From Sphaerolaimus hirsutus (lineage: Eukaryota > Nematoda > Chromadorea > Monhysterida > Sphaerolaimidae), in contig OZ038458.1 in the NCBI GenBank assembly GCA_964036195.1, positions 18,241,832 to 18,305,831 of the forward strand: a DNA stretch of 64,000 nucleotides, read 5' to 3'. The translations under genes and the position numbers were made by a program. Shown here one piece after another: positions 263-37,159 of the stretch. The notes beneath the pieces were generated by a model, which had not been told where the DNA came from, did not search any database, and worked only from the letters and a program-made list of their open reading frames with translations. How positions within the stretch are numbered: the stretch's first letter is position 1; every line of letters begins with the position of its first letter.

Positions 263-995
263 AGGCGAACTTCCTGCCTTCCTGGCGCTAGCGCCGCCCG
301 CAGGATCAAGAGCCGCGCCTGCCCAGCCACCGTTTCTGGCTTCGTCGCTGGAATCCTGCAAATTTAAGTGCATTGTGAGTATACATACATAAAATATGCA
401 TTGGAACTGTAGCAGGGACGTATCCAGGATTTTTGAGCGGTGAGCTGCTTGTTTACGGAGGCCGCCGGCCCCTAAAATTTTACGTGGCGGAATGGAATGG
501 CGGAGGAGTGGCGGAATGGCGCTGGCACCAATAGTAGGCGTAACGTTATGGCGCCATTGGCCTTGGCGCTAGCGCCATGGAACACCGTAAATATCCATAC
601 AAATGCAACAAACAGCACACAATTGAGTGTATGTTTAACGATTTCGGCCACAGGGAGAAAATCTACTGATAATAGATCGCGTCTGGTGAAAAATTCGCGC
701 AAATTTTTTTTGCAGACGTTGAAAGTGGCATTTTCCGGCCACTTTCTGGTCTCACCCCGGGAAGGGGGGGACTGCAGCCCCCCCTGGATACGGCCCTGAA
801 CTGTAGGTAGCTGAATAAACCAACTATCGCCATCCCGATGTCAGGATCGTCCGCAGCACCACCTGGACACAATCCTATCCTAACGGTCATATCGTATTTG
901 ATCGATGAATCCGAGTCAGTTGTTGCTATCTCCATGTCCACTTGCGAAGTATCGCAGTCGCCGTCGCCATCAGTACATCTGTCCGCATCTGCCAT
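263..995 (-). CDS. Tandem-family protein copy 7, 5' part, truncated by window edge
   Basis: Two phase-compatible exons are visible: 825-995 (begins at an ATG; 57 codons; donor GTTGGT) and 263-355 (31 codons; acceptor TTTGCAG, donor GTAAAT). Both begin and end in phase 0. The first is rich in Asp (MADADRCTDGDGDCD) and then has a beta-strand-like stretch, YDMTVRIGLCPGG, followed by DIGMAIV, resembling a strand pair in other copies. The second is a Ser/Asp then Gly/Ala-rich linker like the D exons. The intron between them holds a hAT-like element. The rest of the gene would lie left of position 1. Membership in the family is inferred from position, strand, phase and composition. The start codon is a guess, because other copies begin directly after a splice acceptor. 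Confidence 0.4.
413..798. mobile_element. hAT-like MITE (CAGGGACGTATCC ends)
   Basis: Terminal inverted repeats CAGGGACGTATCCAGG and CCTGGATACGGCCCTG are bounded by a perfect 8-bp duplication AACTGTAG (405-412 and 799-806). The 8-bp duplication and CAGGG terminus fit hAT superfamily insertions. It is 386 bp with no transposase, and sits in the intron between the two visible exons of copy 7. Related ends occur at 23949-24080, near 26808 and near 62460-62775. Confidence 0.9.
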
Positions 996-1304
996 AGCGA
1001 TGTAGTCTCTGAGTCCGAGACAACTGATAAACACTGAGACCTTTACCAGCGCGGAGATAACTGGGGCAATGAATCAGAAAACAGAACATGAGGTTGATGA
1101 CTATTCAGAGGTATTTCGAGGAAATACGGTATTTAAATGAGGTTTATTAACCAAAATGAGTTATGTTTAAAATCAATAACTTCTTTACATTTTATTTTCA
1201 TTCAACTTAATTAATTTCAAAGGTGACAAAGGCACAATTACAGTTGCAATGTAACTGCAAAAACAAAAAAACACACAGCGAAATTAAATTATGAATCTAT
1301 TGAC

Positions 1305-2236
1305 TAGTGATGGAAAAAGCGCCAGGCTTTCAGCGCCAAGCGCCAAAAGCGCCATGGCGCTTTTCCTACTTACAGCGCCAAGCGCCAATGGCGCCAGAGC
1401 AAAAAAGCGCCAAGCGCCAAAAGCGCCATGGCGCTTTTCTGGACCTCAGCGCCAAGCGCCAATGGCGCCATAGGGTAATGGCGCCAAGCGCCAATAGCGC
1501 CAGCGCCAAAAAATTTTTCTTCAATTCGTTTTTAGAGTTATGAATACATAACTGTGACGTACTGCTGATGTCGATGTAGTCTATTTAACTTTGGCCATTA
1601 AAGTTCAATCCACCATGTAAAGGGGGAAGGGAAATTCTGGGAGGGGATTCAGTGATTAGAAAAAATCCATTTTCTTGAAATCAATCATTTCTTGTGTCTT
1701 AATCATCAATGTTTATCAGTTGAGGCTTAAAATGAATAAAGGTGGATACAATACCAGTACATTTTTGTGAGAACTAAGGTATTTAGACAAATATGAGGAC
1801 CTTTGAAAAGGGCACCATTTTACACCTTTGATTGAATTCGATGCAAAAAAAGTTGTCTCCTAATATTAATCAATCTTTTATAAATAATGTAAAATTGTAA
1901 AATAATCAATCACCTTTTACAAAACCCTTACATCAATCAAAATTTATTCAGTTGCCCTCAAAGTTGATCAACTGGAGTTTCAATTTCACAGTATGATAGC
2001 AATTTTTATAATCAAGGTTGGCGCTTTTTTGGCGCCATTAAAAATGCCGGCGCCAGGCGCCAATAGTGCCACCAGAAAATGGCGCCAAGCGCCAAAAGCG
2101 CCATGGCGCTTTCTGAGATCCCGGCGCCAAGCGCCAATGGCGCCAGAGCGTTTTAGCGCCAAGCGCCAGGCGCGAGAGACCCTTTTGCTTTGGCGCTAGC
2201 GCCAGGCGCCAGCGCCATGGCGCTTTTCCATCACTA
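1305..2236. mobile_element. hAT-like MITE with GGCGCCAAGCGCC subterminal repeats
   Basis: The ends are TAGTGATGGAAAAAGCGCC and GGCGCTTTTCCATCACTA, with 8-bp duplication CTATTGAC at 1297-1304 and 2237-2244. Both arms carry many copies of the word GGCGCCAAGCGCCA around an AT-rich, non-coding centre. No transposase frame is seen. Further copies or fragments lie near 13513-13603, 28155-28380, 35065-35150, 49110-49165 and 62410-62900. Confidence 0.92.
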
Positions 2237-2244
2237 CTATTGAC

Positions 2245-3270
2245 AGACAAAATAAAGTTCAAAAAGATAAGCCAGATAAGCGTCTAGATAAGCCATTGAA
2301 TAAAAACTAGCCAACGATGTAAGCCGCATCGACTATCCCGCAATTACATCTAGTAAGAGTAAAAATATTAATCTTTCAACATTTTTCTTACAACATAATC
2401 TTTCAATATTCTAGAGAGAACCAATTAGGTAATTCACCAGTACATTACATGCGCCATAACGCATGTAAACTTGGTGGACATGTAGACGGATCAGTGTGAT
2501 GAAAAAATGCAGGGAAAAGGGCGTACATGTGCACCGGGCCTACATGTGCAGCGGCTTTACATGTACACTGGCACAAGGCCCATCGTACAACGAATGCTCT
2601 ACCAAAGAAAAAGCAAAAGCTCACACAAAAATACAAGTGTCACAAAATCCACACTTAAAAACCCTCAGCAAAGTAACGCAATGTTACAACCAACAATGCA
2701 AACTAACATTTAGAATTTTTTTAAACACCAAAAAAACAGTACACAACCTCGAGTTGGCAACAGTTGGCTCAGCCCCCCTAAAATTTTCGCTAAAGCGGGC
2801 AGCGAGTGGAAAAATCGTGATTCATTTATTCAAATTAGGGAAATCTACATAACAGGAAATGCCAATCTACATCGTGGGACTTGTAAGAAAATACGGACGG
2901 CGTCTAGATAAGCCATTGAATATAAACATTCTGGTGCCAAATATGAATTTACTTACATAGGCAGAAAATGCATTAGGCATTGGTGGGGAATTAAGTAAAA
3001 TGTATTGTAAATACAACAATGGGGACCCCAAAAATGGTCCTACCTAACTCAAATTTGAAAAATTTGTAGATCGATACTTTTAGAAGCACACCCTTCATAT
3101 ACAGCGACAGTCACAGTTTTGACAGCAATTTTAGGGATTTGTACCTACGGGGGCCGATCCACTGACATGTGTAGTATTTGATTGAATTACTACAATTCAA
3201 TCAAATACTACACATGTAAACATCAACATATCAAAAGCACACAACATATCAAATTTACGTGGCTCGAAAA
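2245..3270. other. Intergenic, no gene seen
   Basis: Spacer downstream of copy 6 and upstream of copy 7. It contains ACATGT/TGTACA-type short repeats at about 2510-2600 and a small palindrome at about 3175-3215 (ATTTGATTGAATT/AATTCAATCAAAT). I see no exon with splice sites. Confidence 0.5.
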
Positions 3271-6474: not shown

Positions 6475-6659
6475 ATTAGCAGGGACTGGCGGCTCGATCA
6501 AAATTGATGGAAACACGGGAACGCTGCGAACTGGTAAACAAAAACAGCATACCAAAGCAAAACAAATTAATCCAGATATGCGGATAAGTATGCGCAAATA
6601 TGGGAAACAAATCAACCCAAATGTGGCACCATGTGTAATGTCATTAACATAAACTGCCG

Positions 6660-8053: not shown

Positions 8054-10782
8054 CTACTCGGTGCAGCGGGCGGAAATAATCACAAACGAGTGACCCACAG
8101 TGATGACATGAATCTGAACATACAGCGTGCCATCAGAGTCAGACTCGATGTCAGAATCGGACTCGGTGGACATATACATGTGGTCGGCAGAGCCGTACCT
8201 GCGGCTGTACCTAGTCCTCTTGACGCTCTTCTTTGTGGTGCCTTTCTTCGCGGTACGTTTCTTCACATTGTGCTTCTTGCTCCTTTTGCTCTTCTTCTCC
8301 TGCGGTACGGGAGGGACCTTATAAAGCGTTACTAATAAAGACCCCAGGGGTATCTTGAATTTCGACCCTCTGAGTGGTTGGATAAATAGCAAATCGCTCA
8401 TCCGGAGGGATATATAGCTGACTGGGGGGTTTGGGGGGGGGGGTTGGTTGTGGTGGTTCAATATGAGGGTGTACTAATACGCACATCTGCCTGTTACGCA
8501 CATTTGCCTGTTTTTTTCACTTGACACTTTTTCAAGTGATTTTCAGATATGAGTGAAAAAAGTTGCGCAATGACATTAGTAAACTTTTTTCACTTCACTC
8601 ATATCTGAAAATCACTTGAAAAAGTGTCAAAATGGCTATTTACCACAAAGTCCCAAACTCGCCTTTATGAGGCACATTTCGCCGCAAATATTCACCAGCT
8701 TGACGTTGCGCATGTAACCCGGCACCGCGCTGCTGCTCTGCACGCTGCTGCCCCGCTGCAATTATGTAATTATCATTATCGCAGTAAATACAGTAATTTT
8801 TTAAATAGAACCCCCTTGACATTAATTGTAGGCTTGGCGTCACACCCATAAAAAGCGCGTTTTTTTCCACTTTCCGCTGTTTTTGCCCGAAATACCCCCT
8901 TGGGGTAATACGGTAGCTTGAAACAGTTGCGTAAATGCCACTTAACTTATGCATCGAAAACTTAACATATGCCTCGAAAAATTGATTTGATTTATAATTA
9001 ACACACCCCAAAATTCTGTGCGGGTTGCCCAAAAAGTGCAAAAACATCCATTTTGATCTTTTGCAACATTGCCTGCTATAACTATCAAACATTGCAATTA
9101 GCAAAAAGTACATCCAACCTGGATCATGTTCTCCGCCCGTTGACTCAGTGACTCGACTTCGTCATCACCAATACCATCCTCTCGGTAATCTTCAAAATCC
9201 ATGTCAATCTTCTTAACCAGCGCCTGCAGCTTCTCCCGTGTGGCAGCTTGGCTGGTGAAATCGTCATCATCGTCCTTGTCCTCGTCAGCGATCCAGTGGT
9301 CGCGCATACATCGCACGCGGGCGATGATCGGCTGTCCGTGCGCAGTGCCAATCACGCCAGAACTATAACAAAATCAGTGATGGAAAAATGCGGGAAATGT
9401 ATCATGGCTACCGTATTTCCTTGATATACTCCCCTCGTTAAACCCGCCCCCCTCAAAAATCTTACTCGAGCGGACTGAACTTGAAAATCTATCATGCGAT
9501 GTGTGGTACAGCGATTCCTATGAATAAACATTCATTCACGCCCTAGCCTACACTAATTTGGCAGTCTTTCTGTAGGTGGAATTAAATCTGGCCCCTGGGG
9601 GTATTTCGAGGAAATACTGTACATGGGGAGTCTCATTCCAAAAACGCATATATCCACAATTTTCAATTTTTCAAAATCGCACTTTAAAGTTTGGCGATGG
9701 CCCGATGGCGCTATGTTTGGGCGACAACACTTGCCTTGAACTTTTCAGATAGATCCGACATTTCTCTACCATTTTTGTAACCACAAATTTTGTTGGCTGG
9801 GAAATATTTAGGGAGTTATGTGAGATTTTGTAAATCACCCAAAATTGGGAACAAATCTGAACATTTGAAATTAAATGTTGAATAACTTCGTAACGGTCAT
9901 CGTAGGCAAAAACCAATAACACGACTGCAAAACCCGTGTCTAAAAGTACCTCTACCTAAATTTTCAGATCAAAATATACACGCATATTTGTTTATAGTGC
10001 AAAACAGATTTGGAAATTCACGTTTGCATATTTGGAAATGAAACTTTATTTTGTATGGGAATTCCGGCCTCTCCGGCCGTGCATTTTTGGAAATGATTTT
10101 TTGGATATGTGCATTTTCGATATGAAACTCCGGCGGTCTGAGATGGATTTATGCATTTTTGATGTGAAAGTCCTGTTTTTCATAGGGGACTGGTCATGGA
10201 TATGTGAACTTTCGATGTGAAAATTTGCGATTTTTTTGAAAATTGGTACCACTGTATCTCGGGAACGAGATGGACTATAACGCTGATTTTTTTTCTAAAA
10301 TGTGAAAAACTACACGTGGAGACCAAATCCACGCTTAACTCGATTTTTCTGGATTTGGCGCTTGTGAACTTTTGGAATGGAACTCCCCACATGTGCCAGA
10401 GTTTATATGCCTACCAGCTTACGGTGGCAAAACCTCCAAAAAAGAGTATTTTTTCCAAATGAATTTTGGAAGTTTTACTCAAATTAATTTTCTAATTGAA
10501 TATTCAAGTATTTTCAGGCAATTTTCAATTTTTTGGAGAAATGTTGAATTTGAAGCTTTGAATGTATTCCTACCTGGGGGTCCCCTCTGACACTTTCTGA
10601 GTGATAGGAGTCCCCCTGGTGACGTGGTCGCGGTCGATGAGGAGCAGCAACAAACCTTCGCCCTCCGGGACACCGGAGTGGTCCTGGACACCGGGGCGCT
10701 CAAAAATCATGGTCTCATATTCGACCTCGAGCAACAGCAATCGGCGGTTCGCAACAAACGAGCAGTGCGATGACACGAGCAT
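8054..10782 (-). CDS. Tandem-family protein copy 5
   Basis: Coding exons in order: B 10574-10782, C 9119-9362, D 8663-8755, A 8054-8299, giving 263 aa with TAG stop. ATG lies directly after the acceptor CTTTTTAG. A non-coding first exon ends at 10981 (GTGAGT donor). B shows CSFVANRRLLLLEVEYE then GVPEGEGLLLLLI; C shows GVIGTAHGQPIIARVRCMRD followed by a long Asp-rich tail; D shows GYMRNVKLVNICGEMCLIK; A begins Lys/Arg-rich (KKSKRSKKHNVKKR), becomes Ser/Asp-rich and ends FVIISARCTE. The D donor is GC (GCGAGT) rather than GT. Basic then acidic CK2-like tracts suggest a nuclear protein. I do not recognise the family; no enzyme motif is visible. Confidence 0.85.
8337..8460. repeat. Fragment of CAGGGGTATCTTG / AGCTATCTAT element
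   Basis: The segment CCCCAGGGGTATCTTGAATT with TATAGCTG and a G-run matches the left arm of the complete element at 43085-43593. It lies in the intron between exons D and A of copy 5. Confidence 0.6.
8523..8628. repeat. Near-perfect hairpin in copy 5 intron
   Basis: Arms of about 42-45 bp: GACACTTTTTCAAGTGATTT near 8523 pairs with AAATCACTTGAAAAAGTGTC ending at 8628. They are separated by a loop of about 18 bp. It is probably a very short foldback MITE lying 35 bp from the D exon donor. Confidence 0.85.
9409..9621. mobile_element. TACCGTA-type MITE
   Basis: Inverted ends TACCGTATTTCCTTGATATA and TATTTCGAGGAAATACTGTA enclose CCCC-rich and GGGG-rich arms. It lies in the B-C intron of copy 5. 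It is one of many such elements in the window; TA at the outer edge suggests a Tc1/mariner-like origin. Confidence 0.8.
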
Positions 10783-14103: not shown

Positions 14104-17100
14104 TCATTCGATGCATCGCGCGGACACTAACACGAAATAACTCGACGTGATGACGCACAGTCGAATCTTCAGAATGTCACCCTCCTCATCAGTACTCACG
14201 ACTTCAGAGTCAGACTCTGTCTCTGAGTCGTCGGACTCCGAGTCGGTGGACATGTACGTTTCCTCAAAAGAACGAGGGGGCCAGCGACGGCGATGTTTCT
14301 TCGGACTGCGCTTCTTTGGACTGGGCTTCTTGGCACTGCGCTTGCGCGGACTTTTCTTGGTGCGTTTGGTTCGCTTGTTCTGTGTTCCGGGAGGAGCTAT
14401 TATTAAAGTAAACTTACCGTATATCCTCGAATAAGTCCCCTGGGGTGTTATTTTCATCAGAAGTTTTTGAGAGGGGAGTTATTTGAGAGGGGGGACGCTC
14501 AATTACTGTCAATAATAATATTTTGCCCACCTTCATAAGGCACTTCTCCTCCAGAATAGTCACTACCTTGGCGCCGCGCATATACTTGGGCATCTCGCTC
14601 TTTGCGCCGCTGCTGCTCCGTGCAATGTTGCCGCTGGTGCTCCTCTGCATGCTCAGCGTGGAGCTGCTCCTCTGCGCGCTCGGCATGGAGATGCTCCTCT
14701 GCATGCTCAGCCTGGGGCTGCTCCTCTGCGCGCTCAGCGTCGAGCTGCCTCCCTGCGCGGCAGTGCTAGTTTGTAATGTGTACAAAGCTAGATGATAGAG
14801 TTACGTTAGGGAAGGGTTTATGTGTATTTGGACCCACACACGCTAGTTGACATTGCAAATTTGTGTCAACTCAATGTCAACTAAATAACACAAAAATAAT
14901 TTTAAAAGCAGCACACTTAACAGAATCAATGAAAATTAAGTGCCATTATGTATGTAATATTCTATATGCTCTATCAGATAGGAATGTTGAAATGACAAAA
15001 TTCACAAAAGGTTAGTTGACAAATTGGTTGCATCAACTGCTAGATCACGTATGGATATTTTATAAAAATGAATTACCAAAATTCAGCAGGTTCCTGTAAA
15101 ATTGAGATATTTTAAAAATCAAAGAAAACGCCTGTCAAGTTTGACAGGGGATCAAATAGTGAATTTCGTCATTTAGTTATAAAATGAACATCATGTTGAA
15201 CAACCTTGCAAATCGTGTCGATATGAAATTCGTCGATTGAGTCGCTTCTGACTCGCAACATTAAAATTACGGGTTTCTTTCCCAGTATAATTTTGGTAAA
15301 AGCATGAAAACCACGTGTTCACGAATTGCAACTAATTAATTAACTCCTGCCAAATTGGCTGGAGGTCAAATATTGAATTTTACAATCATAGATATTCCAA
15401 AATAATCCAATCATGCAAAGTATACCAAGTTGATTACTCTTGGCTTGTGGCATGAAACTTACGGTTTTCCGATTTTTGAAGAAGTCTGCAAAAGACATAT
15501 AAACCTATTTTTGACGAGTTACCGCTAATCACACCTGCCAAATTGACAGGTGGTCAGATAAATTAGTCTTGCGAATTTATCACAGAATGATCCAACTTCG
15601 CGAATATACCTAAGCTAATAATGTCGATTAGCCCCCCCTAACTTGCAACATGAAACTTGCGGCAAGTGGACAATGGAATTTGTAAATCACTCCGTCTCTA
15701 ACAAGTGATCATGCGATCATCGAATAAAATACATTTTGATTGATTAAGGTATTTTTAACACCAATCCTTGCTTGATAAGAATCCTTGCTTGAGTTAGCGT
15801 ACGAGTTATCAACTGCCCTCTAACTTACTACACTTATATAAAAAACTGAGTTCAAGATTTCAGAGCTATAAAAATTAGGATCTAAAATACGTGCGAAACA
15901 TTTGATTGAATCCAAATGACACAGCACATACTCGGCGAACATGATACTCTGCCCCCGCACTCATTTATGTCTCACGTTGAAAGCGTGCCAATGATGATCA
16001 AGCATGCAATTTTTGTATAAAGATTTAAAACATCATTGTTGTGAATAAGTTCACATATAAGCGTCATAACAGCGATGACTTTTTCAACTTTTTTCTGAAA
16101 AACGCATGCAGTCACTTTACACGCTGCACGCGTGGTTTCCACTGGAAGCGTGCCAACGATTCTATTGCGCATGTAATATTCATAAAACGTTGAAAAAAGT
16201 CATATCAGTTATTACGCTATACGTTTATATATTCAGAACAATGATTTTTTCGTCTTTTATAACAAAATCGCACGCTTTATCATCTTTGGCACGCTTCCAA
16301 CGTGAGACATAAATAAGCGCAAGGGCAGAGTATCATGTCCGCCGAGTATAAATACAAAATAATTGATATATATATATATATATATATATATATCGGAAAA
16401 AATTTCGTCAATTGGATTGTAAACGAGTTGACTTCCATGTCACATAATTGTATTTACCCATAAAAGAATACTCGACAAAATTTGGGAATGCTTATTTGTT
16501 GACGAATAAAAAGTGAAAAGACAAGTGACTAGGTAAATCCTGTAAAAATGTAACCTGGCTCATGGGCTGTTGACTCGGTAAAGTGGCCTTGTCATCAAGA
16601 ATCCATCTGTTACGCATAAAGCGTACCTTCACACGGATCGGACGGCCATCCGACGTCCCAATGACGCCATGCCTGTATTCAAAATGCTCATGCCAAAAAT
16701 TAGCACACAAAACGCCACAAAACTAGGGTTCAAACGGGATCCCAATCCAGACTTTAACCTCCCGAGCATTTGTGCGATTTTGTGGTCCCGACCCCTATCC
16801 CAAAACATTTGAAAACTTAATGCTACGATGTCTACAATAATTTTATGCTATCCAAAAAAATTTCCCAGTTTTTCAAATATTGATAACACATGCATGCATG
16901 CACAATGGGTTTAACATGCGTAATGGCGCATGTCAAACCAACAATCAAGTCGGAAGGAAAAAATACCCATACTCACGTATCCTCAAACTCAGACACTTGG
17001 AGGGTGACGGGCGGCTCTGTGGTGACGGAGTCGGCGAGGACATGTAATTCCATCATACCTTCGTCATCCGGCACCCCCTTCAGTGGCGGTTTAGAGGTGT

Positions 17101-17176
17101 ACATGGCACCCATGTAGTGGACCTCAACAATCACGAGGCGCCTGTTGACAACGAAGCAGCAACGTTCGAGCCCCAT
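14104..17176 (-). CDS. Tandem-family protein copy 4
   Basis: Coding exons: B 16977-17176, C 16555-16672, D 14531-14752, A 14104-14379, giving 271 aa with TGA stop. ATG follows acceptor CCTCAG directly. A non-coding exon ends at 18075 (AAAG|GTGAGT). B: RCCFVVNRRLVIVEVHYMG then GVPDDEGMMELHV; C: GVIGTSDGRPIRVKVRFMRN; A: basic (KRTKRTKKSPRKRSAKK), then SDSESDDSETESDSE, ending FVLVSARCIE. The D exon is expanded to 74 codons by a tandem repeat encoding SMQRS/SAQRS-like units before the conserved KYMRGAKVVTILEEKCLMK. Phases match copies 1, 3 and 5. Family and function not recognised. Confidence 0.85.
14600..14752 (-). repeat. Coding tandem repeat in exon D of copy 4
   Basis: Imperfect units of GAGCATGCAGAGGAGCA type encode alternating Leu-Ser-(Met/Ala)-Gln-Arg-Ser. 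The frame is preserved throughout. Exon D of the other copies lacks it and is 26-34 codons long. Confidence 0.8.
15030..15720. repeat. Three degenerate ~190-200 bp tandem units in copy 4 C-D intron
   Basis: The landmarks CCTGCCAAATTG-CAGG and CATGAAACTTACGG recur about every 190-200 bp (near 15130, 15346, 15530 and near 15255, 15455, 15640). Single related units occur near 21350-21600 and 33230-33460, in introns of copies 3 and 1. Confidence 0.6.
16366..16392. repeat. (TA)n microsatellite
   Basis: About thirteen TA dinucleotides in the C-D intron of copy 4. Confidence 0.95.
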
Positions 17177-19026: not shown

Positions 19027-22000
19027 TTACTCCTTGCAGCGGCCGGAAATTATCACGAAAGTGTCCCCCACGGTCATCAAGTGAATGGTCATATAAAGGT
19101 AGTCATCATCATCCTCCCCCTCAGAAATAGGGCCCTCAGAGGACACGGTGTCATCGTCATCCCCGTCGAAGTCGAGCAAGGTCCGTCTGGCCGAGCTGCT
19201 GCATGCAGAACGGCGGCGGCGGTCGCGCCAAAAACGCTTGTTGCGCCGGCCGGCCTTCTTCGAGCCCTTGCGTTTCTTGTTCGGCTGCGTGTACAGAAAG
19301 GATGAAAGAGTACCCCCTTGTAATTAGGGTTCAAACGTTGGTGTGCCTCTCTGCATGTTAAGTTTAATGCATGCATGCAATGGAATCAAATATAAATATC
19401 AAATTTATCATTCGATTTGGATTGTCAAGTTCTAGCTGGCTTCTCACATTTTCGTGAAAGCTGAACCAGTTTTTATCATGTTACAAGCTAAATTTAGATG
19501 AGTCCTTAAACACTAGCGAAGTGCCGTGTACTTACTGTTGCATTACGACGGTAATCGCGACGTCCATTATTTGAGACACTTGCCATCCGGCAGGTGTTAT
19601 GCTATCGTTGAAGTTTTAAGGCCATTTATTATTTCTATTAGAATTTCCTGATGTAAAGCCAGTCTGCATGTAGCACTGGTCCGCATGTAAGCCTGCTCTG
19701 CATGTAAATGCATGCTACATGCGGACCGGGCGGGGGATTAGCGGCGCCGGTTCACATGGTGCCTTGTGGGGGGGGGGGCGTGCATGTGGAACGGGCGGGG
19801 GAATAGCGGCGCCGGTTGACAACACAGTACTGACAACGCCGCTAATCCCCCGCCTGATCCGCATGTAAGCCCGGTCCGCATGTAGCATGCATTTACATGA
19901 AAGGCAGGTTTACATGCGGACCAGGCGGGCTTACCTGGGGGCAGTCCCAAGCCCTGTAAAGTGTAAAGTAAAGTGTCAAATGTAAAGTCAAATGCAAAGT
20001 CAAGTGTCAATCAAAACAAAAAAGAAAAAGATTTTATTAGTGAACTTTGCATGACAATTGACACTTTACTTTGCATTTGACTTTACATTTGACACTTTAC
20101 TTTACATTTGACACTTTACTTTACACTTTACAGGGCTTGGGATTGGCACCAGTGCTACATGCAGATGTTTTGGTTGTGGGAGTTATTCAAGGGAGAGTTA
20201 CTTTTCCTCACCTCGCCAACGGGGAGTTATTCAAGGGGGGAGTAATTTTAGGTGGGATTTTATTCGAGGATTTACGGTCACTTTGATCACCCCAAGGTAA
20301 ATACATGAAATGGGCATTAAATTGAATTAAAAAAATTATTAGCATACTCACCTTCACAACACACCTTTCACCGCCAATCACTTTGATCACCCCGCCGTTG
20401 TGGTTCACCGGCTGCTGGTTGCCAGAGTCCTGCGTGGGGGGGGGGGGGTTGAGCAAATCCTGGATGCACAAGTAAACCCGGCCTGATGCCCTGCAAGGAG
20501 CACACTTTAGGGCTCGAACTGGACTCAAGTCGCGACTTGAGCAAAAACAGGGTACTGACTCGACTCGTCTGACTCGACTGGAAAAATATGGCCCAAACTC
20601 GAGACTCGAGGTTTTTGCCCGACTTGACTGGTATTGGATTGAATGGTGTTAAAACTAAAGTTTAATGCATGCATGCATGCAATGGAATCAAATATTAATA
20701 TAGAATTTATCGAATGTTTCTCACATTTTCGTGAAAGCTGAACCCGTTTTTATCATGTTACAAGCTAAATTTAGATGAGTCCTTAAACACTACCTAACTT
20801 TGGCTGTTGCATTACGACAGTAATCGCAACGTCCATTATTTGAGACACTTGCCATCCGGCAGGTGTTATGCCACGGTTGAAGTTTTTCAAGGCGATTTAT
20901 TATTTCTATTAGAATTTCCTGATGTAAAGCCGGTCTGCATGTAAGCCCGTCTGGTCCGCATGTAAGCCTGCTCTGCATGTAAATGCATGCTACATGCGGA
21001 CCAGGCTTACATGCGGATCAGGCGGGGGATTAGCGGCGCCAGTACTGTGTTATCAAATGGAGCCGCTATTCCCCCGCCCGTTCCACATGCACGCCCCCCC
21101 CCTACTGAAATGAGTTATTCTTAATTCCCATCAACTGCAGTTGACCAAAACATCATTATGGTAAATTCAAATGTGTTCAAAATTTGTGGTTGCGGGGTTC
21201 AAATGTGTTCAAAACAGCCGTCCGGTGCACAAGTAAATGCCCTGCACAGTGCACAAGTACCGGCAGTAAAAGGTTGTGGAAATGAACCGCCTATTTACCA
21301 CGCCCACACCCTTTAGACATATTTAGAATTATTTACCTACTAAAATTCTGGTTGATTCAATCTATGAGCATTCCACACATAGCAATATATAAAATCGACT
21401 TATCAAAATTCAGTAGATTTTTACAGGATGATAAAAATTATCTGAGATCCTAAAGAGAGTGTACCTGCCAAATAGCAGGCAATCAAATATTCCCAGATAT
21501 GGTTAGAGGAACCGCAGAATGGACCTCTTCGAGAGTGCCCAAGAAGTGAAAGCCCACCTAGTTAATTCTAGCTTATCACATGAAAATTTCGCCTCGGGCT
21601 ACATATATAGCTGAGCGGCCCCCGTAAACAAGCAGCCCCCCCACTCAAAAATACTGGATAGCCTGCAATTGAGGCGTCTAATTCTAAAAGTCGACAAGTC
21701 CACAAAATGGGATTTTGAGTAAATGGACTTATCACATTTCTTGCGTTTTTTCCCATAAAAAAGGCTACGGAAGGTGGACTTATCGACTTTTAGTTCCCTT
21801 ATTCCGGGACTCCAATCCCGATCCAATCCGTGCCGTGACTAAACTAACTTCGGTTTGATCGGCTACTAGCAAGGGGTCATCATCGATGTTCTCCTGATCC
21901 ACATTCATGTCAGAGAGCGCATCCTCCTGGTCACCGCCATTGTTATTTTCGGGCTCGTCCGGTATCCATCTGTTGCGCATGAAGTACGCTCTGATAACGA

Positions 22001-22818
22001 GGGGGTAGCCGTGCGCGCTTCCAATCACAGCCGTACTGTAAAAAGAGAAACAGATTGAAACAATATCAGATCCTGACGAGAAAAGTTGACGAGCCAGAGT
22101 TAGCGCTGAGCCGGTGCCCAAGTAAACCCGTTGCACAAGTATGGGGGCGATACTTACCCTGTAAAATGTCAAATGGCAAATGGCATGCAAAGTGTCAAAA
22201 GTCATGGAAAATACCCTGTAAAATGTGAAATGGCATGCGAAGTGTCAAAAGTCATGGAAAATACCCTGTGAAATGTGAAATGGCATGCGAAGTGTCAAAA
22301 GACATGGAAAATACCCTGTAAAATGTGAAATGACATGCGAAGTGTCAAAAGTCACAGAAAATGCCGTGTAAAATGTCAAATGTCATGCAATGCAAAGTGT
22401 CAAAAGTCATGGAAAATGCCCTGTAAAACGACCCGGAATTGGACTTGACATTTTTTAGGTCATAAATATGAGCCCTAAACTTCCAATTCCCAATTCCAAC
22501 TTTCCAATCGAAGTGAAATGAGAAGTTTCGGGATTTTGTGGTCCCGATTCCGAAAAGTCAATCCCTTTGAACCCTACCCTACCCTACCGACACAAAATAA
22601 AGCACAACAAACGTTACGACACCCTCCGCCAGCTCCATCGTTACACCAAGAGGGTAATCCATTACCACACTATCGCGCTCAATAAAAACGAGCATCAAGC
22701 CCTCCCCCTCCGGCACACCCGCTGGATCTTGAGTTTGGTCCAAAATGTTTGAGCTGTATTCCAATTCAGCAATGACCAGGCGTCTGTTCTTGACAAAAGA
22801 GAAGCGGGCGTAAGGCAT
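19027..22818 (-). CDS. Tandem-family protein copy 3
   Basis: Coding exons: B 22613-22818, C 21849-22035, D 20352-20429, A 19027-19284, giving 242 aa with TAA stop. ATG follows acceptor TTTCCAG. A non-coding exon ends at 23350 (GTGAGT). B: RFSFVKNRRLVIAELEYSS then GVPEGEGLMLVFIERDS; C: AVIGSAHGYPLVIRAYFMRN with an acidic tail (DMNVDQENIDDDP); D: GGVIKVIGGERCVVK; A: KKRKGSKKAGRRNKRF, then acidic (DFDGDDDD, EGEDDDD), ending FVIISGRCKE. The B donor (AC|GTTTGT) is taken from phase. Same exon phases as copies 1, 4 and 5. No known family recognised; basic/acidic tails suggest the nucleus. Confidence 0.85.
19357..21045. repeat. Direct duplication of ~380 bp spanning copy 3 introns
   Basis: 19357-19735 and about 20655-21045 share long stretches, for example AATGCATGCATGCAATGGAA and TTGCCATCCGGCAGGTGTTATG. 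The two units bracket the CWG element (19938-20149) and exon D (20352-20429). GCATGTAAGCC/GGCTTACATGC words form an inverted cluster in each unit. Confidence 0.7.
19938..20149. mobile_element. CWG-flanked MITE (GTGCCAATCCCAAGCCC ends)
   Basis: It lies between CTG (19935-19937) and CAG (20150-20152). On the minus strand it starts GTGCCAATCCCAAGCCCTGT and ends GGGACTGCCCC before CAG. It lies in the D-A intron of copy 3. Same family as 4370-4568, 51765-51976 and 59276-59433. Confidence 0.75.
22150..22430. repeat. ~50-bp tandem repeat, about five units
   Basis: The unit contains CCTGTAAAATGTGAAATGGC, ATGCGAAGTGTCAAAAGTCA and TGGAAAAT, with a period of about 50 bp. The words are those of the CTG-flanked MITE arms, so this is probably an expanded arm. 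It lies in the B-C intron of copy 3. Confidence 0.85.
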
Positions 22819-24080: not shown

Positions 24081-24137
24081 ATGTCAAGTCAAGACTATGT
24101 GAAACAAACTATTTTTCAAACAACAAAAACACAAAAC

Positions 24138-29104: not shown

Positions 29105-32100
29105 TTACGTGCAGCGGGCCATAACTATAACATATTTATCCGCAACGGTGCACAGATTCAGATGCAGCTGCATGTAAGGCAAGTGTTCGCCATCGCTGTC
29201 ATCAGAGTCCTCACTCTGATCGGGACGCTTCGGCTTTTTCTCATTGCCACCCTTTTTAGCAATCTTCCTCTTCCTATTCTGCGTGTTCAGGAAGTGAATT
29301 ACTCGTGAAAAAAATAAATAATCAAGGAAATCGCGAAAGTCCAATCCCGATCCCTAAATTTGAAAAACTAATCCATTGGCGCTGAGCCGGTGCGCATGTC
29401 AAACAGGTGCCCAAGTATGTCTGGTGCCCAAGTATAAATTCCGGTGCCCAAGTACTCCCGGTGCCCAAGTAAAGTGTCTGTACTTGGGCACCGGGCGGCT
29501 CTTACTTGTGCACTGGGCAGGTGCAAACGCGAATATATAAAATTAGACTCCCAAAAATAGGATTGAGATTAATTACCTAGTAGAAGTGAATGTGGTAGAA
29601 GTGAAAGTGAACAACAAACTACTTTATATGGCTGATTTATAGTAATTGCCTAACAAAATTCTAGACGTGAGAAAATACGCTCAGAATTCGATACTATTAT
29701 GTCTAGATTTAATACAATTGACAGATGTCTAGACAATTAAGGCACCAACAATCGTCTTAGCAGACAACTAAAAACCGAACCCCTCCCCATAAGCATTAAA
29801 CTAATAAAAATATAAATATTTGCGTGTTTATGTACATAAGCAACCTACCTACAAAACACCCAAATATTTATAATATTGCACTCCCAAAATAAATTGCAAT
29901 ATTAGATAATTATTATAAATTGCAAAACACCCTCTGAAAAAATAAACCCCCCAGGGGGTAATTTGAGGAAATACGGTACTGATTTTGATTTACTGGTATA
30001 GTACTGATTTCAAATCAAAATCCCCATGTGATTCGTAAAACATTGCTGAATTGCTGTGCAAGTAAAACAAAGTTCTAAGTAAAGCGAAAAATGAAAAGCA
30101 AACAATGTAAAATGTCACGCGAAGTGACAAATTCATGGAAAATGCCCTTCAAAATGTCAAATGTCACACGAAGTGTCAAAAGTCATGGAAAATGCCCTGT
30201 AAACTGTCACGCGAAGTGACAAATGTCATGGAAAACGCCATGTAAAATGTCATGCGAAGTGCGATGCTCAAGTAAACCCGGCCCGCCCCGCCCCGACGCA
30301 ACCGTGCCCAAGTAAGTGTTGCGCAAGTCCCCGGTGCACAAGTCCACAAGTACGGGCATTTTACTTGGGCACCGACCCACGCCCGATTAATCCAAGGGGC
30401 TGTCTCGGGGAAATACGGTAGAAAATAGGTTAGTCTCACTAGTATCAAAAAAGTTCAGCATGCTTAACAACTCTGATGCACGTAGGGTTCAAACGGGATT
30501 GACTTTTCGGGATCGGGATCGGGATCGGGATTCACTTTTTGAGATTTCGGGATCGGGATCGGGATCGGGATTGGGGTTTCGGGATCGGGATCGGGATCGG
30601 GATTGGTAATTTGAGATTTCGGGATCGGGATCGGGATCGGGATTGGCCGGGATTGGGGTCACGGGATCGGGATCGGGATTGGGATAGGCATTTTTCCGGG
30701 ATCGGGATTGGGTTCTAGGGATATAGATTTTGGCCATTTTTCTGGCATTCACAGTTGTTCATAAAGGTCTCAAAACACTGTTGGATGCCAGAAAAGTGGC
30801 ATAAAATTGACGCTGGGGGTTTGCATCCACTTTTTTGCATGCAAAAACGTCATTATTTCACTTTTTATAATTTCCACTAATTTTTCCGGGATCGGGATCC
30901 CGGACTTGGGAGTTTCTCGGGATCGGGATCGGGATTTGAAAACTTTCGGGATCGGGATCGGGATCGGGATTGGTATTTTTGAGATTTCGGGATCGGGATC
31001 GGGATCGGGATTGGGGTTTCGGGATCGGGATCGGGATCGGGACTGGTAAATCCCGGAATTTCACGGGATCCGGGATCGGGATCGGGATCCCGTTTGAACC
31101 CTAGATGCACGCTCTACTCACTTTTGCAGAGTGCGGCGAATTGGAACCTTTTGAACGGCGACAAGTTAAGTCGTTGTTAATTTAAGTCGGAAGCTAACCA
31201 AACCGTCAAAATAACACTTCTATTTATAATAAACCCTTCCCAAAAATAATCTGAGTTGGCAAATTTAAATTGTCAAAATGGAAAATGACATTATGTGTCA
31301 CTTGCCCTACTTTTACTTGATATTTATTAATCCTAGTTGCAAAATTCGAGCGAGAACCAAGTTCCCGAATTCATGAGCCGAATATATAATACATGTTAAA
31401 AGTTTTGAGATTAGTTACCTAGTAGAAGTGAATGTGGTCCCAACAACAAACTACTTTATATGTCTGATTTATAATAATTGCCTAACAAAATTAGAGACGT
31501 GAGAAAATACACTCAGAATTTGATACTATTGTGTCTATATTTGCTTTTTCGGCAGGGAAGTTAGAATTACTACTAAATTTTCTACTATTTCTACATTCTT
31601 ATATAAGGCTGTAAAAACTTATAAATGGTGTTTATTGTTCACGTTTTCACGTTTTTCTCGCAGAATTTTCACTCTGAAAAAATAAACCCCCCGGGGGGTC
31701 ATTCGAGGGAATACGGTATACTAGGTAATTATTTTCGCAAAAGGATGCAAAATGTCAATTACAGGATGGGTGATACATGCGATTTAACCCCAATGCTTAT
31801 ACATAGAGCACTTATATAATAAGTGACCTTCAAAATACAATGAGCAAATATTCATGTAGAGGTAAAATATGCTAATTGTGCTGTAAATCGGCATAAAAAC
31901 AGGAAAAAATACATTTATCATTTCCACAATGGAAATGCCCAAATAAATTATCTTATGGGGTAGTACTGATTTTGAATCAAAATCCCCATGTGATTCGTAA
32001 AACGTTGCTGTGCAAGTAAACAGCCGCCCGGTGCACAAGTAAGGGCACTTTACTTGGGCACCGGTCTTTATACTTGGGCACCGGTTTTACTTGGGCAACG

Positions 32101-35100
32101 CCACGCCTTGGGCCTTTACCGACCCACGCCCTTCTGATTCAGAGCCCTTATCCCCTATCAAAATTCGTTTAAAACGTTTTCATACTCACTTTCATGATGC
32201 GCTCACTGTCTGTCATCGTGGCCTTCGTTTTGCCGTTGCCATTGCGCATGTATACCGGTGTGGAGGTACTCGACACGCAACTGCCGAGATTCTGCATCAA
32301 AAAGCTATTGATAAATAGAAGTTTTGAGTCTCTCGAGTCTCCTGTCTAAATGTTACGAACAACTAAACGAAGATTGACGCCAAATAGTTAACGCCAAAAA
32401 TTCGCTAGTCCCCCCAAGGGTTGGAAAAAAACCCTTGACTTTTTGCCAAACCAGGACCGCAGTCCCGTTTGAACCCTACATCCAAGGTACGTACCTGGGC
32501 GGATGTTTACTTGGGCACCGGTCAGGTGCAAGCAAAAGACTACCGTATTTCCTCGAAATACCCCCCCTCAAAATGGACACTATGAACTTATAAACCCCCC
32601 CTCGAAATACCCCCCCCCAAATTTAGTGTATAGAGAACGTAAATGACAAAGGCTGCGGTTTGTCATCCCGGCAATGCAAAACACACGTTAAAAAAGATGA
32701 CTCTGTTATGTGAGAACAGTGTTTGTACGTCTACACACTTATAAATGTCTTTAGAGTCTTATAAATGGCGATTTTTGTTGCCTTTTTCGACGTCTGCGTA
32801 CGTTTCAGACGACATTTTAGTACTGGAATTTCAAAAAATTTCTGCCGAAATAATAAACCCCCCCCTCGAAATACCCCCCCCCTCGTTTAACCCCCCCTCA
32901 AAATTCTCACTCTGAAACAATAAACCCCCCGGGGGTATTTCGAGGAAATACGGTAGTTGACTAGCTTGTATTTATGACCTGAAAAAACTATCATGTCCAG
33001 GTAACATTCTGGGTTGTGAACATGAACGCTAGTTCACTAGCGATCACCTTCACAGATGTTGCCCGGACTCGATAGTTTTTTCGGGTCGTAAATACAGACT
33101 CCAATCAAGTGAGATTAATTATTAATATGTTTACATGTTTACATTTATCCAATGGACACATTGTAAAATTATACTATTGAATTTTGGTCGAGCAGCGAAA
33201 TCTGCGAATGACCTACTAGCCGCTATATATAATATAGGTCCATCAAAATTCTATGAAAAAATCCTACATAGTGATAGTGATAAAGCTACTTATAATTAAA
33301 GAGAGCGCCCGTCAGAATTGACGAGGAATCAAATAATGAATTTTGCCAACTTGATTGCAAAATAAATGTTCATTGTAAAAACACTAAGAATAAAAACGCC
33401 GATTGGCTGATTCCAGCTCATAACATAAAAATTACGGGTTTAGCCTTTGATTAGATTGATAAGGACATTTTATCACTTAATAGCTAATCTCACGCTAATC
33501 AACCACTTAGCACAAAGACTGGTGCCCAAGTACGCCCGGTGCCCAAGTAAAGTGCGTGTACTGATGGATCTGTGCTGGTGATCATGGAAAAATCATCAAA
33601 ATTACAATTTTACAAATTTATTTAGAATGTCATAATTATTGAAAAGTAATTGTAAAGTTGAAATGTCATTGTAAAAGTTGAAAAATGTATGATAATTGGT
33701 GAAAAATGTAGAAAATGACTGGAATGTTTGTCGAATGTGTGAACCCGCAAAGGTAACGTTTTAATGAGCCACTACTTACAGCCAAAAACAGTCTTCGATG
33801 TGATACTTTATGTATATATGAATATTTATTTATTTATTATATATTTATTTGATGTAGGCATTCAAGGCACTTTTGGAGGGGGTTTTCCAATGGAAAACCC
33901 CTATAAAACCCCCATGTGTGAACATGAATGCTAGTTCACTAGTGATCACCTTCACAACCCGGAATGTTGCCCGGACTCGATAGTTTTTTTGGGTCGTAAA
34001 TACAAGTACAATGTTCGTATTTATGACTAGGGTTCAAACGGGATTGACTTTTCGAGATCGGGATCGGGATTGGGGTTTCGGGATCGGGATCGGGACTGCA
34101 AAATCCCGGAATTTCACGGGATCCGGGATCGGGATCAGGATCCCGTTTGAACCCTATTTATGACCCGAAAATTATCGAGTCCAGATAACATTCCAGAAGG
34201 TGATCGCTAGTGAACTAGCATTCATGTTCCTGTTTGAAACCTAGTCAAGTACGCAACCGCCACGGTGCACAAGTAATGCACAAGTAAAAAGCTGCACTGT
34301 GCACAAGTAAACATCCGCCCAGGCACCGGGCATACTTCGGCACCGGGTATTGAAACTTGGGCACTGACGAACCGTCCATCCATCCAACCCCCTACAAAAT
34401 TCAAATTCAAAACCCACCGGGCTCATGGTAATTGGCTCATCTGACTCGTCGAATTCGTACAAGTCGCCCCGGCCCGTTTTATCCTCGAAAAGATCCTGCT
34501 GATCCTGCCCATCATAATTGCAATTTTGGTCAGACCATTCGTCGCGCATGAACCACGCACGGGCAGTAATGGGTTCCCCAAAGGCACTTCCAACGACGAT
34601 ACTTCTGCAAAAAGAACATTGAGGAGTGACGACACCAATTACGCTACCAGCTAAATTACGACGACACCAATTACCAGCTAAAGTAAACTCGATAGCTCCA
34701 CCTAGGGTTCAAACGGGATCGCGATCCCGTATCCTGTGAAATTCTGGGATTGAGCAGTCCCGATCCTGAAACCCCAATCCCGAAACCCCAATCCCGATCC
34801 CGAAATCCAAAAATACCAATCCTGATCCAGAAACCTTTCAAATCCCGATCCCAAGAATCTCCCAAGTCCAGGATCCCGGAAAAAATAGTGGGAATGATAC
34901 AGTTGGGCAAAAACCAAACAAACGGCTGGCCGTGGCAAACAGACACGACAGAGCAGTTTGGTTGATTGTCGTCCTTAGCGGGCGGGGCTGGCGGACCCCA
35001 TCTGGGGGCACTCACAGACCCTGTAAAATGCCATGAAAAATGTCAAGCACGCTTTGTGGTGAGACTAGTGATGGAATGGCGCCATCGACGCTTGGCGCCC

Positions 35101-36449
35101 TTTTCCTGTGGCGCCTGGCGCCCACTTTCTGAAAGGCGCCATGGCGAAACATTTTTGTCTATAAACTCGATAGCTCCACCTAGGGTTCAAACGGGATCGC
35201 GATCCCGTATCCTGTGAAATTCTGGGATTGAGCAGTCCCGATCCCGAAATCCAAAAAAAACAATCCTGATCCAGAAAACTTTCAAATCCCGATCCCGAGA
35301 ATCTCCCAAGTCCGGGATCCCGGAAAAAATAGTGGGAATTATAAAAGATGGAAGCAAATGACAGTTTTGCGTGCAAAAATGTCAACGCAAACGCCCAGCG
35401 TGAATGAACAGTGACAGTGACAAACAGTGAGGAAAATCTCTATCCCTAGACCGCAATCCCGATCCCGTGACCCCAATCCCGATCCCGAAATCTCAAAATA
35501 CCAATCCCGATCCCGATACCGAAACCACAATCACGATCCCGAAATCGTGAAAAGTGAATCCCGATCCCGAAACGTCAATCCCGTTTGAACCACCTAGGGT
35601 CGGCCGATGTTTGTTTTTATAAACGTTTTTTTTAAAAAACAACGTTTTATTTATTAAAAAAAATGACGTCCGAATGACGTTTTTAAAAAAACATTGGCCA
35701 AAATTTTTAGTACTAAGCACTAGGTATTTTGCAAAATTTTTGCACGCAAGCGCGCAATTTCACACACAAATTGACATTGGTGGTTGTTTTCATTGGTTTT
35801 GTGGCATTTTTAGTATCAAAGTATTCATTTCTATGTGCTACCATGGGTTAATAAGCCGTCATATGTTGCTGTAGTATGTAATATTGAGGTAATGTGCTTC
35901 CATGTACCTCCAGAGTGTGTAAATTCACTCCCAAAGTACCCACCATTTTTGGTGACTGGTCAGAAAGATAACACCGTTCATGCTGTAAACGACATCGAAA
36001 AACGTGGACGAACTCGAAAAACATTTTTACGCATAAACCGTATTGGGCAAGGGTTGTTACTCAAAGCGTGCCCGCTCAGGCCACTCTCAAAGTTTAAAAT
36101 GCAATTTTCACAAAACTGAAAAACGTGGAGTTATCGAGTTACGGAAGGGAACTCCTCAATTACGCTACCAATTACCAGCTAATTACGCAACACCAATTAC
36201 CAGCTAAAGTACCCACAAATCACCCACCACTCACTCAGCAGCCGGATATTCGAAGATATCCATTGTGGTAACCTCAGACAACCTCGTCATGTTGTTCCGC
36301 ATATCAGCTGCTGCATTCAGCATCAGCAATCCCTCGTCCTCGGGAACCCCGTCACTGTCCCGGACATGTTCGAAAACATTAGCAGAAAATTCGACCTGCA
36401 CGAAAACGAGCCGCTCATTTGCCACAAAAGTGCACTCCGCGACCGGCAT
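29105..36449 (-). CDS. Tandem-family protein copy 1
   Basis: Coding exons: B 36235-36449, C 34418-34604, D 32190-32291, A 29105-29278, giving 225 aa with TAA stop. ATG follows acceptor CCTTTTCAG directly. The non-coding first exon ends at 36688 (CCGAA|GTGAGT). B: CTFVANERLVFVQVEFSAN then GVPEDEGLLMLNAAADM; C: IVVGSAFGEPITARAWFMRD with an acidic tail (DESDEP); D: VYMRNGNGKTKATMTDSER; A: basic (NRKRKIAKKGGNEKKPKR), acidic (SEDSDDSDGE), ending YVIVMARCT. This is the array member nearest DNAJA2 and the longest because of transposon-filled introns. Not a family I recognise; a nuclear acidic/basic protein is inferred. Confidence 0.85.
30110..31165. repeat. Segmental duplicate of copy 2 5' UTR exon/intron, with a later hAT-like insertion
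   Basis: 30110-30482 plus 31104-31165 reproduce 26010-26390 almost exactly, including GCGGCGAATTGGAACCTTTT and the UTR donor. It lies in the D-A intron of copy 1, on the same strand. The duplicate is split by the element at 30483-31103, which copy 2 lacks, so the insertion came after the duplication. Confidence 0.85.
30483..31103. mobile_element. hAT-like MITE (TAGGGTTCAAACGGG)
   Basis: Complete 621-bp copy with 8-bp duplication GATGCACG (30475-30482, 31104-31111). The arms are GATCGGGATC words. The 26330 region shows the corresponding empty site. Confidence 0.95.
32541..32955. mobile_element. TACCGTA MITE with GAAATACCCCCC word
   Basis: Ends TACCGTATTTCCTCGAAATA and TATTTCGAGGAAATACGGTA are a near-perfect inverted repeat. 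It lies in the C-D intron of copy 1. Confidence 0.88.
34028..34156. mobile_element. 129-bp TAGGGTTCAAACGGG MITE
   Basis: 8-bp duplication TTTATGAC (34020-34027, 34157-34164). It is nested in another repeat recognised by GTTCACTAGYGATCACCTTC at 33030, 33940 and 34200. Confidence 0.93.
34700..35600. repeat. Cluster of GATCCCGAT-word MITE copies in copy 1 B-C intron
   Basis: Two overlapping direct copies start at TAGGGTTCAAACGGGATCGC (near 34703 and 35180); the second ends near 35597. Between them are fragments of a CTG-type element (near 35000) and a GGCGCC element (35065-35150). Confidence 0.75.
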
Positions 36450-36477
36450 CTGAAAAGGGTTTTGATAAAGTTTCAGG

Positions 36478-36600
36478 TTGTTTAATGAAGTTTCAGGCGG
36501 TTTCAAGCAGTTTAATGAAGTTTCAGGCGGTTTCAAGCAGTTTAATGAAGTTTCAGGCGGTTTCAAGCAGTTTAATGAAGTTTCAGGCGGTTTCAAGCAG
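36478..36600. repeat. 30-bp tandem repeat, four units
   Basis: Four nearly identical units of AGTTTAATGAAGTTTCAGGC plus GGTTTCAAGC lie in the 5' UTR intron of copy 1, ending about 20 bp from the AG|ATG acceptor. There are no spacers and this is not a CRISPR array. Confidence 0.95.
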
Positions 36601-36687
36601 TTTACGAATTTTTCTAAAATATTTGGCACTGTTCCAAAAAGAGCAAAGAGCGAAAGCAGCACGAATAAAACTGCGCCAGCAACTCAC

Positions 36688-37159
36688 TTCGGATTGTCGG
36701 CCCATCAGCGATAAGGAACGTCCAAGGAAGTGCGCGAGGCTATTTTTCCTTTTTTTTAATTTTTTCAGTCGCGAATTAGGCGGAGCTTATGGCTGTAGTT
36801 CTCGTAAAAGGCGTGGTTTTAACGTGAATTATTGGTCCCAATGTATAAAACATTACTTGACGTAAATTACTGGTTGATGTAAAGTGCGTAATTTTGGCAC
36901 TACGCCATCCCGCCAAAATTTTCCTAACCCGGATCGTTCCAGTACCGACAACTGCAATAAAAATAATTGCAGAACGAGTGAGCCGTAACCCATTTTCCGT
37001 CTGATTCGTTAACCGGTGATTGGTTTTGTCTCTGTATCCTAGCGAAACAAATATCACACCATTTTCAGGATCAAACTTGAACAAAAGTTACGCATTCCCA
37101 TAATTCAGATCTCGCCACGACGTTGCAAATTTAACCACTAAATAGTAAATTCATCAAAA
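36688..37159. promoter_or_regulatory. Divergent promoter region between copy 1 and DNAJA2
   Basis: The 5' UTR exon of copy 1 (minus, ending 36688; 5' end perhaps near 36790) and the DNAJA2 start (plus, 37160) lie head to head within about 470 bp. TATAAAACATTACTTGACGT near 36843 is TATA-like on the plus strand; otherwise no motif can be assigned. No transposon is recognised here, unlike neighbouring spacers. Confidence 0.4.

Follow-up and report, generated by a model that had tools for sequence, protein, structure and literature searches.

Merlin transposons are short elements with a single transposase gene. The superfamily is defined (PMC8101967) by 5'-GG ends, a target-site duplication (TSD) of 8 or 9 bp and a DDE_Tnp_IS1595 transposase, and its inverted repeats measure 24-462 bp. 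Teratorn of medaka, a giant element of 41-182 kb with a transposase and inverted ends, is described in a review of giant transposons of eukaryotes (PMC6431247), as are Pack-MULEs, in which pieces of host genes lie between inverted ends and are moved in trans; the word 'Merlin' is absent from the review's main text. Teratorn is a piggyBac-herpesvirus fusion. Within the scope of our literature search, which covered mainly open-access journal papers, no title or abstract dealt with a giant or cargo-bearing Merlin.

Here we analyse a window of 64,000 nucleotides from the nematode Sphaerolaimus hirsutus (contig OZ038458.1), in which a preliminary description had reported a tandem array of at least seven copies of an unrecognised gene family. 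That description missed the setting of the array, which is carried as cargo by a giant DNA transposon. We give a probability of about 0.75 to our main reading, that this transposon belongs to the Merlin superfamily (IS1595/IS1016-like DDE transposase) and carries the array.

The element resembles Merlins in its imperfect inverted ends with 5'-GG, its 9-bp target duplications and its DDE_Tnp_IS1595 domain with D-D-E, but differs from them in its 127 kb, its apparently spliced transposase gene, its intron-containing cargo genes and the existence of a 16-22 kb sister class without a detected transposase. Similarly, it shares with the Starship elements of fungi the character of a giant cargo-carrying transposon, but the classification of Starships rests on a tyrosine recombinase, whereas the present element has inverted ends, a 9-bp TSD and the domain of a DDE transposase. 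With Teratorn it has in common giant size, a transposase, inverted ends and an animal host; Teratorn, however, is part herpesvirus, whereas no viral gene, herpesvirus hallmark genes included, turned up in the 30 of 132 longer ORFs scanned here. Like Pack-MULEs, it carries host gene pieces between inverted ends, but the elements here have no MULE match, are much larger, and have a cargo family that is amplified inside the element.

Extent and ends of the giant element

The element occupies C14:18151295-18278777, 127,483 bp in the assembly including one 200-N gap at 18189311-18189510, because of which its true length is uncertain. Its right-hand 36.9 kb correspond to window positions 1-36946 (minus strand), which other copies match at 99.3-100%. 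The right terminal inverted repeat, at 36923-36946 on the minus strand, reads inward GGTACTGGAACGATCCGGGTTAGG, and the left end reads GGTAATAGAACGATCGGGGTTAGG; both start with GGTA and 21 of their 24 bases are identical, while likeness further inward is seen in gapped alignment only. The perfect 9-bp TSD GACAACTGC occupies 36947-36955 and is repeated directly outside the left end. At the five sites compared, likeness among copies stops at 36946 and the flanks are unrelated. No extra copy of the 24-base end is present within the giant with up to 7 mismatches allowed; a looser scan with 15 bases gave two weak sites there (3 mismatches).

Copies on C13 and C2 had seemed to have variable left ends, an interpretation that we rejected, as 200-N gaps are found instead. 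A BTB-like ORF at C14:18149318 was likewise discarded, being in the host flank and a single match only. A younger insertion at 11401-13374, with the 8-bp duplication GTGAAAAC, is missing from the four other copies compared.

Copies across the genome and evidence of mobility

A genome-wide search with the pattern of the ends found 64 ends (32 left and 32 right), compared to 0 in the reversed control, and all 64 begin with GGTA, as those of the window's element do. Exact 9-bp duplications were found at 16 of the 19 end pairs examined, the window's included. Over 55,271 aligned bases, nested repeats included, the window and the other copies show 26 mismatches (gaps uncounted); large stretches therefore moved as a unit, and the near identity of the giant copies suggests that movement was very recent. 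Only two giants have both ends assembled, and a TSD is found in the window's only; the 130-kb sister giant lacks one, perhaps through a scaffolding fault. We consider the case for the element's mobility to be strong.

The same ends also bound a sister class of elements of 16-22 kb. Host-type genes are present in both classes. The giant carries a KMT5A-like SET gene (E 8e-20 on two joined pieces), and two of the 16-22 kb sisters, which were partly read, have DDX39B-like and KH pieces; Pfam was silent on the two DDX39B-like pieces singly, and a PDB search with the pieces joined recognised them.

If the array were a host tandem gene family that arose by ordinary segmental duplication and is not itself mobile, we would expect tandem paralogues with conserved intron phases, and these are indeed present. 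However, many sites show the same ends along with inverted repeats and TSDs, which contradicts this explanation. Moreover, matches to the family across the genome fall, by coordinates, in the giant element, and no free-standing copy was found in the genome. We regard a host family of this kind as scarcely credible.

The transposase and probable assignment to the Merlin superfamily

Two joined pieces match PF12762 (DDE_Tnp_IS1595) with an E value of 6.9e-12, and PF12762 scored directly on the DNA gives 35.8 bits (cut-off 27). The transposase gene is apparently spliced, and its last exon is identical (100%) at six places with giant sequence. When aligned with two PF12762 proteins, the three acidic residues are in place (IDE, ISD and IEGVW), such that the D-D-E is intact. 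Measured against the definition of Merlin, the window's element has inverted 5'-GG at both ends, a TSD of 9 bp and an inverted repeat that reaches the length given (with the 21 identities in 24 bases). Because the DDE_Tnp_IS1595 transposase, the GG ends and the 9-bp duplications occur together, the assignment to the Merlin superfamily is fairly strong, and the 127-kb size looks unusually large for a transposon of this class.

The IS1595-type enzyme could be a passenger, because DDE_Tnp_IS1595 found no match within 14 sister elements of known limits, which have the same ends; indeed, because host-type genes occur in both element classes, the transposase gene could be cargo too. The mobile element would then be as described, but it would be moved by a different, unrecognised enzyme whose target cut has a 9-bp stagger. 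However, the GG ends, 9-bp TSD and transposase domain all fit Merlin, and the giant holds no separate copy of the ends at 7 mismatches or fewer. MULE transposases are another candidate that gives a 9-bp duplication, but none of the eight genome matches of PF10551 is inside an element. We therefore consider a passenger transposase unlikely. The transposase gene may lie within a nested element bounded by ends of another kind; the only inverted repeats found in its surroundings were not attributable to that gene.

Under the Merlin assignment, we propose from sequence features that the IS1595-type transposase, or a close relative, would bind the ends and excise the whole 127-kb unit, which would be joined to a target cut with a 9-bp stagger. 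The sister elements, with the same ends and no detected transposase, would be moved in trans.

Structure of the array genes

The preliminary description assigned to copies 1, 3, 4 and 5 a layout of four coding exons (B, C, D, A) with identical phases and their own ATG and stop, and all four of these genes hold up: the models at 36449..29105, 22818..19027, 17176..14104 and 10782..8054 are open from B through A, with ATG and stop, and intron phases are 2/0/0 in each. With exon ends picked by hand to fit splice sites, the acceptors are AG in 12 of 12 cases (the start of exon D of copy 4, at 14752, was revised to give AG) and the donors are 11 GT and one GC, the latter in exon D of copy 5. Seven copies inspected at their start read AG|ATG there, possibly with a 5' non-coding exon or a spliced leader in front.

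All exons are on the minus strand. Copy 1 has exon B at 36235-36449, with its ATG 497 bp inside the terminus, exon C at 34418-34604, exon D at 32190-32291 and exon A with the stop at 29105-29278. The corresponding exons, again with the stop in A, are at 22613-22818, 21849-22035, 20352-20429 and 19027-19284 in copy 3, at 16977-17176, 16555-16672, 14531-14752 and 14104-14379 in copy 4, and at 10574-10782, 9119-9362, 8663-8755 and 8054-8299 in copy 5. Exons B, C and A of these copies are supported by both model and profile, and exon D by the gene model. Copy 2 (k2) is compact, with exon B at 25602-25810 found by profile and a fused C/A exon at 24138-24941, the start of which is approximate, broken by a GATCCC-type repeat.

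Leave-one-out profiles, which covered exons B, C and A, were run against the 4726 six-frame ORFs of the element, with the near twin of copy 2 omitted too when that copy was scored. Exon B was recovered in copies 1-5 (E 5e-16 to 2e-23), exon C in four copies (E 6e-8 to 7e-15) and exon A in four copies (E from 4e-3 in c4 to 9e-13). Thus, five of the seven copies in the preliminary description are well supported, including the compact copy 2. Its compact copy 6 is marginal, perhaps corresponding to a possible diverged exon B at 3716-3928 (minus strand, E 0.87), and its partial copy 7 is unsupported, because below 8 kb there is no further minus-strand match to the family at E≤5.

The part of the element that lies to the left of the window contributes a further compact copy (C14:18167245-18166552), and fragments of another two (18191310; 18188972-18186420) flank the 200-N gap. 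The sister giant at C14:13.41-13.54 Mb has matches to nine copies, three of which lie in the stretch hidden by the gap in the window's giant.

Signs of selection on the array family and nature of its proteins

The conservation of the coding blocks had been taken to argue for selection on the proteins, with dN/dS proposed as the check. By the NG86 method, exon B gives 0.12 for c3 versus iii, 0.39 for c4/c5 and 0.48 for k9/c5, and c5 versus i gives 0.17 (exon A), 0.41 (exon C) and 0.55 (exon D), in a set in which two comparisons are undefined and several dS values are saturated. The range of 0.12-0.55 makes the old copies look to be under purifying selection, but exon B of the compact pair k9/k2, at 0.93, counts against selection. 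A clear match of the blocks to a transposon-encoded protein, which the preliminary description had named as evidence against its reading, exists only in that the genes reside in a transposon.

As first described, the copies are arranged in tandem on one strand and the family has no recognisable relative. Searches of PDB, PHROGs and 5.8 billion proteins found nothing, Pfam gave no match at E≤10 for four trimmed cores, and the full proteins had three Pfam matches, all below cut-off (E 0.018-0.12). The same protein database gave only two relatives of the transposase, and is thus poor in this lineage, such that the array family may well exist elsewhere. A nucleoplasmin-like fold, suggested by eye, was rejected (hhalign probability 0.2%, with a thin two-sequence template); the corresponding search found nothing in the genome and nothing in control genomes either, and is hence uninformative.

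A size above 100 kb and several genes without recognised relatives would also be expected of an endogenised large DNA virus, or of a virus-transposon fusion like Teratorn. However, Pfam found no viral hallmark gene in the 30 of 132 longer ORFs and the chosen pieces to which it was applied, the array core has no relative among IMG/VR viral contigs, and the array genes contain introns, all of which makes a viral origin very unlikely.

Discussion

For the probable giant Merlin, we propose the following role for the array. Its genes point inward from the right end, all on one strand, and are predicted to encode a compact core of ~115-135 residues, read as mostly strands, a loop of which, in the long forms, has acidic, then lysine/arginine-rich, then acidic stretches inserted into it. 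The products would be nuclear proteins made for the element's own benefit, and the simplest role would be in chromatin or DNA binding, by which the element stays expressed or silencing is countered. Such a role would fit the presence of the KMT5A-like SET gene in this giant, but the case for a nuclear or chromatin function is weak and we hold it tentatively. More broadly, the element might be an animal counterpart of Starships, an active giant Merlin with an amplified nuclear-protein family and chromatin-type genes (the KMT5A-like SET gene and a TASOR-PIN-like exon) that it would use to escape host silencing, a view that we regard as doubtful.

If a 127-kb Merlin has moved together with its introns and nested repeats, then transposons of a simple cut-and-paste class are able to carry very large cargo in an animal, and a private gene family can multiply inside a transposon. 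The near-identical copies open its activity, its presence or absence among individuals and the response of the host to direct testing.

The array as part of a giant transposon

An ordinary host gene array is rejected as an explanation; the array is cargo in a giant transposon that has multiplied recently. In genome searches that score only the best candidates, the query with the copy-5 protein yielded 127 exon matches, spread over many chromosomes and contigs of the 348-Mb host genome in sets alike in order and scores, and a second family search gave 111. The window itself, at C14:18241832-18305831, is eukaryotic. Fetched copies are 99.3–100% identical to the window, introns included, and 18 overlapping loci differ from it by 26 mismatches in 55,271 aligned bases (gaps not counted). 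At five sites the likeness ends at the same base, window position 36946, beyond which the flanks are unrelated. By their coordinates, the matches of both searches lie beside an end of the giant's form or on a contig with such an end, with two exceptions, on C92 and at 26.70 Mb of C6; no end was detected there, and the fetched loci are 99.9% identical to giant sequence. A distant host gene related to the family is possible.

The giant spans C14:18151295-18278777 (C14 is contig OZ038458.1), with its left end at C14:18151295. Its two ends are inverted repeats, alike in 21 of 24 bases, and GACAACTGC flanks it at both ends. A pattern search allowing up to 3 mismatches found 64 ends genome-wide, while a reversed-pattern control of the same genome found none. 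These are 32 left ends and two types of right end, 16 each: the C-form, which is the window's, and the G-form. Position and orientation allowed us to assemble 20 pairs, comprising 14 G-form pairs (13 measuring 16.3–22.4 kb, the other 5.0 kb) and six C-form pairs (127,483 bp, 130,541 bp and four of 2.1–3.6 kb). A further 24 ends have no partner in the assembly, and in two unpaired copies, on C13 and C2, the sequence enters a 200-N gap.

An exact 9-bp duplication is present in 16 of the 19 pairings with flanks compared, including 12 of the 13 G-form pairs compared (14 in all). The C-form cases are the window's element, a 2.1-kb element on C6, a small element on C15 and a tandem pair, compared by its outer flanks. 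The 16.3-kb element on C2 has no exact duplication and shows an 11-base shared stretch, shifted two bases; no 9-bp duplication was found for the 130-kb copy, and none is shared by the sequences on either side of the tandem pair's first member. This pair (C6:13588397-13595910) consists of two 3,601-bp C-form elements spaced 312 bp apart, with the duplication at the outer flanks.

The two forms are alike at their ends. Fetched left ends agree closely over 54–62 bp across both forms, and 13 of the 14 G-form right ends fetched (of 16) align to the window's end over 249–377 bp at 89.6–96.0% identity; the other, at locus L053, aligns with a sister end but gave no alignment to the window's end at this threshold. 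Outside the fetched G-form right ends, the flanks differ from one another.

Proposed mobilising enzyme

A DDE_Tnp_IS1595 domain is encoded in the left part of the giant (E 6.9e-12, two joined pieces), a match that is over the cut-off on the DNA alone, and its acidic triad aligns with that of two database proteins of the family. Copies of this transposase's last exon at six places show 100% identity; one is in the window's element, and each lies beside a left end or on a contig with one. Identity does not exceed 57% in the remaining 29 genome matches to this exon, none of them inside a G-form element of known limits; a genome search with the DDE_Tnp_IS1595 family gave 23 matches. A MULE transposase was rejected as the mover, as all 8 genome hits are outside the elements. 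Merlin elements are defined, in the portion of PMC8101967 that describes them, by GG ends, 8/9-bp duplications and a DDE_Tnp_IS1595 domain. Because all three agree, the giant fits this label in each tested feature and most likely belongs to the Merlin superfamily. We infer that the DDE_Tnp_IS1595 enzyme moves the giant, and also the G-form.

Other contents and neighbours of the element

Also in the giant is a SET gene resembling KMT5A (E 2.3e-15 to Pfam SET; E 8e-20 to PDB KMT5A, two joined pieces). An exon matches the TASOR PIN domain below the cut-off of 27 bits, scoring 21.8 bits, or 20.8 bits as a single ORF. The TASOR PIN family occurs at six places in the genome, none above the cut-off and five with an internal stop; each of the two giants has one of these, and another is beside giant sequence on C6. 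Pfam searches of 30 of the giant's 132 longer ORFs brought up nothing beyond the TASOR piece and a PIN-like match to DDX60 that stayed under the cut-off. The first 6.6 kb of two of the 14 paired G-form elements each contain one DDX39B-like helicase piece and one KH domain, and in one element two joined DDX39B-like pieces give E 9e-39 against the protein in the PDB.

Long tandem repeat blocks lie within the giant at C14:18157045-18162000 and 18172900-18177370. A 1,426-bp stretch near its left end (L050:5045-6470, the locus containing that end) is 99.93% identical to window 34612-36037, near the right end, which is most of copy 1 intron 1. Window 11401-13374 is a 1,974-bp insertion with ends TAGGGTGT...ACACCCTA and an 8-bp duplication, GTGAAAAC; it is missing in the four other copies compared (L012-L015), and ORFs inside it (11868-12833) read like a candidate BEL/Pao reverse transcriptase. 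Two genes that look like host genes adjoin the giant on the plus strand: one for a DnaJ protein (window 37836-39357; PF00226, E 3.8e-5), the other of the aminoacyl-tRNA-synthetase type and with WHEP repeats (46000-63240; PF00458, E 2.8e-7). Both matching pieces score slightly below the Pfam cut-offs.

Gene models and proteins of the array

We rebuilt four long genes on the minus strand, with exon ends set by hand, and recovered the coordinates proposed in the preliminary description for copies 1, 3, 4 and 5 (36449-29105, 22818-19027, 17176-14104 and 10782-8054). All four models have intron phases 2/0/0; beginning exon D of copy 4 at 14752 gives an AG acceptor in frame, in place of the non-AG acceptor of the first placement. 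The proteins of copies 3, 4 and 5 are 33–37% identical to that of copy 1. Leave-one-out profiles searched against 4726 ORFs recovered exon B of copies 1–5 (E ≤5e-16), exon C of four copies (E ≤6e-8) and exon A of four copies (E 4e-3 for copy 4, ≤4e-5 for the others). Of the at least seven copies proposed, copies 1–5 are well supported; the match for copy 6 is marginal, at E 0.87, and copy 7 had no supporting match in the profile search. The second profile set, used for copies 6 and 7, was built with the copies themselves, and its scores alone prove nothing. In copy 2, the second exon is broken by a repeat. AG immediately precedes the ATG in all seven copies whose start was inspected, which makes a spliced leader or a non-coding 5' exon likely.

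Selection on the proteins, proposed from the conserved coding blocks, appears to hold among old copies, with dN/dS of 0.12 (exon B, copy 3/iii), 0.39 and 0.48 (exon B, copies 4/5 and k9/copy 5), and 0.17, 0.41 and 0.55 (exons A, C and D, copy 5/i), but not in the young pair of compact copies k9 and k2. The values are rough because two comparisons are undefined and dS exceeds 1 in four pairs. Exon B of k9 (C14:18167040-18167245) and k2 (window 25602-25810) is 91% identical with a dN/dS of 0.93, while the ∼310 adjoining bases, mostly intron, hold one mismatch, the k2 insertion aside. Exon-wise conversion from another copy would explain this, as would fast N-terminal change or diversifying selection; each is possible.

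The compact copy k9 displays the core, 135 residues from exon B and a fused C/A exon. In the long forms, an acidic stretch, exon D, a K/R-rich stretch and a second acidic stretch are inserted into a core loop, the one preceding the last two strands (strands assigned by eye). Coding-like minus-strand ORFs at C14:18165060-18165767, whose strand pattern resembles the core by eye, are possibly a very diverged member. Searches with the family, unrecognised at the outset, found no relative in the PDB, PHROGs (two cores searched), viral contigs or a large protein set, and no Pfam match over the cut-off. It is a new gene family, and the composition of its proteins suggests that they may act in the nucleus.
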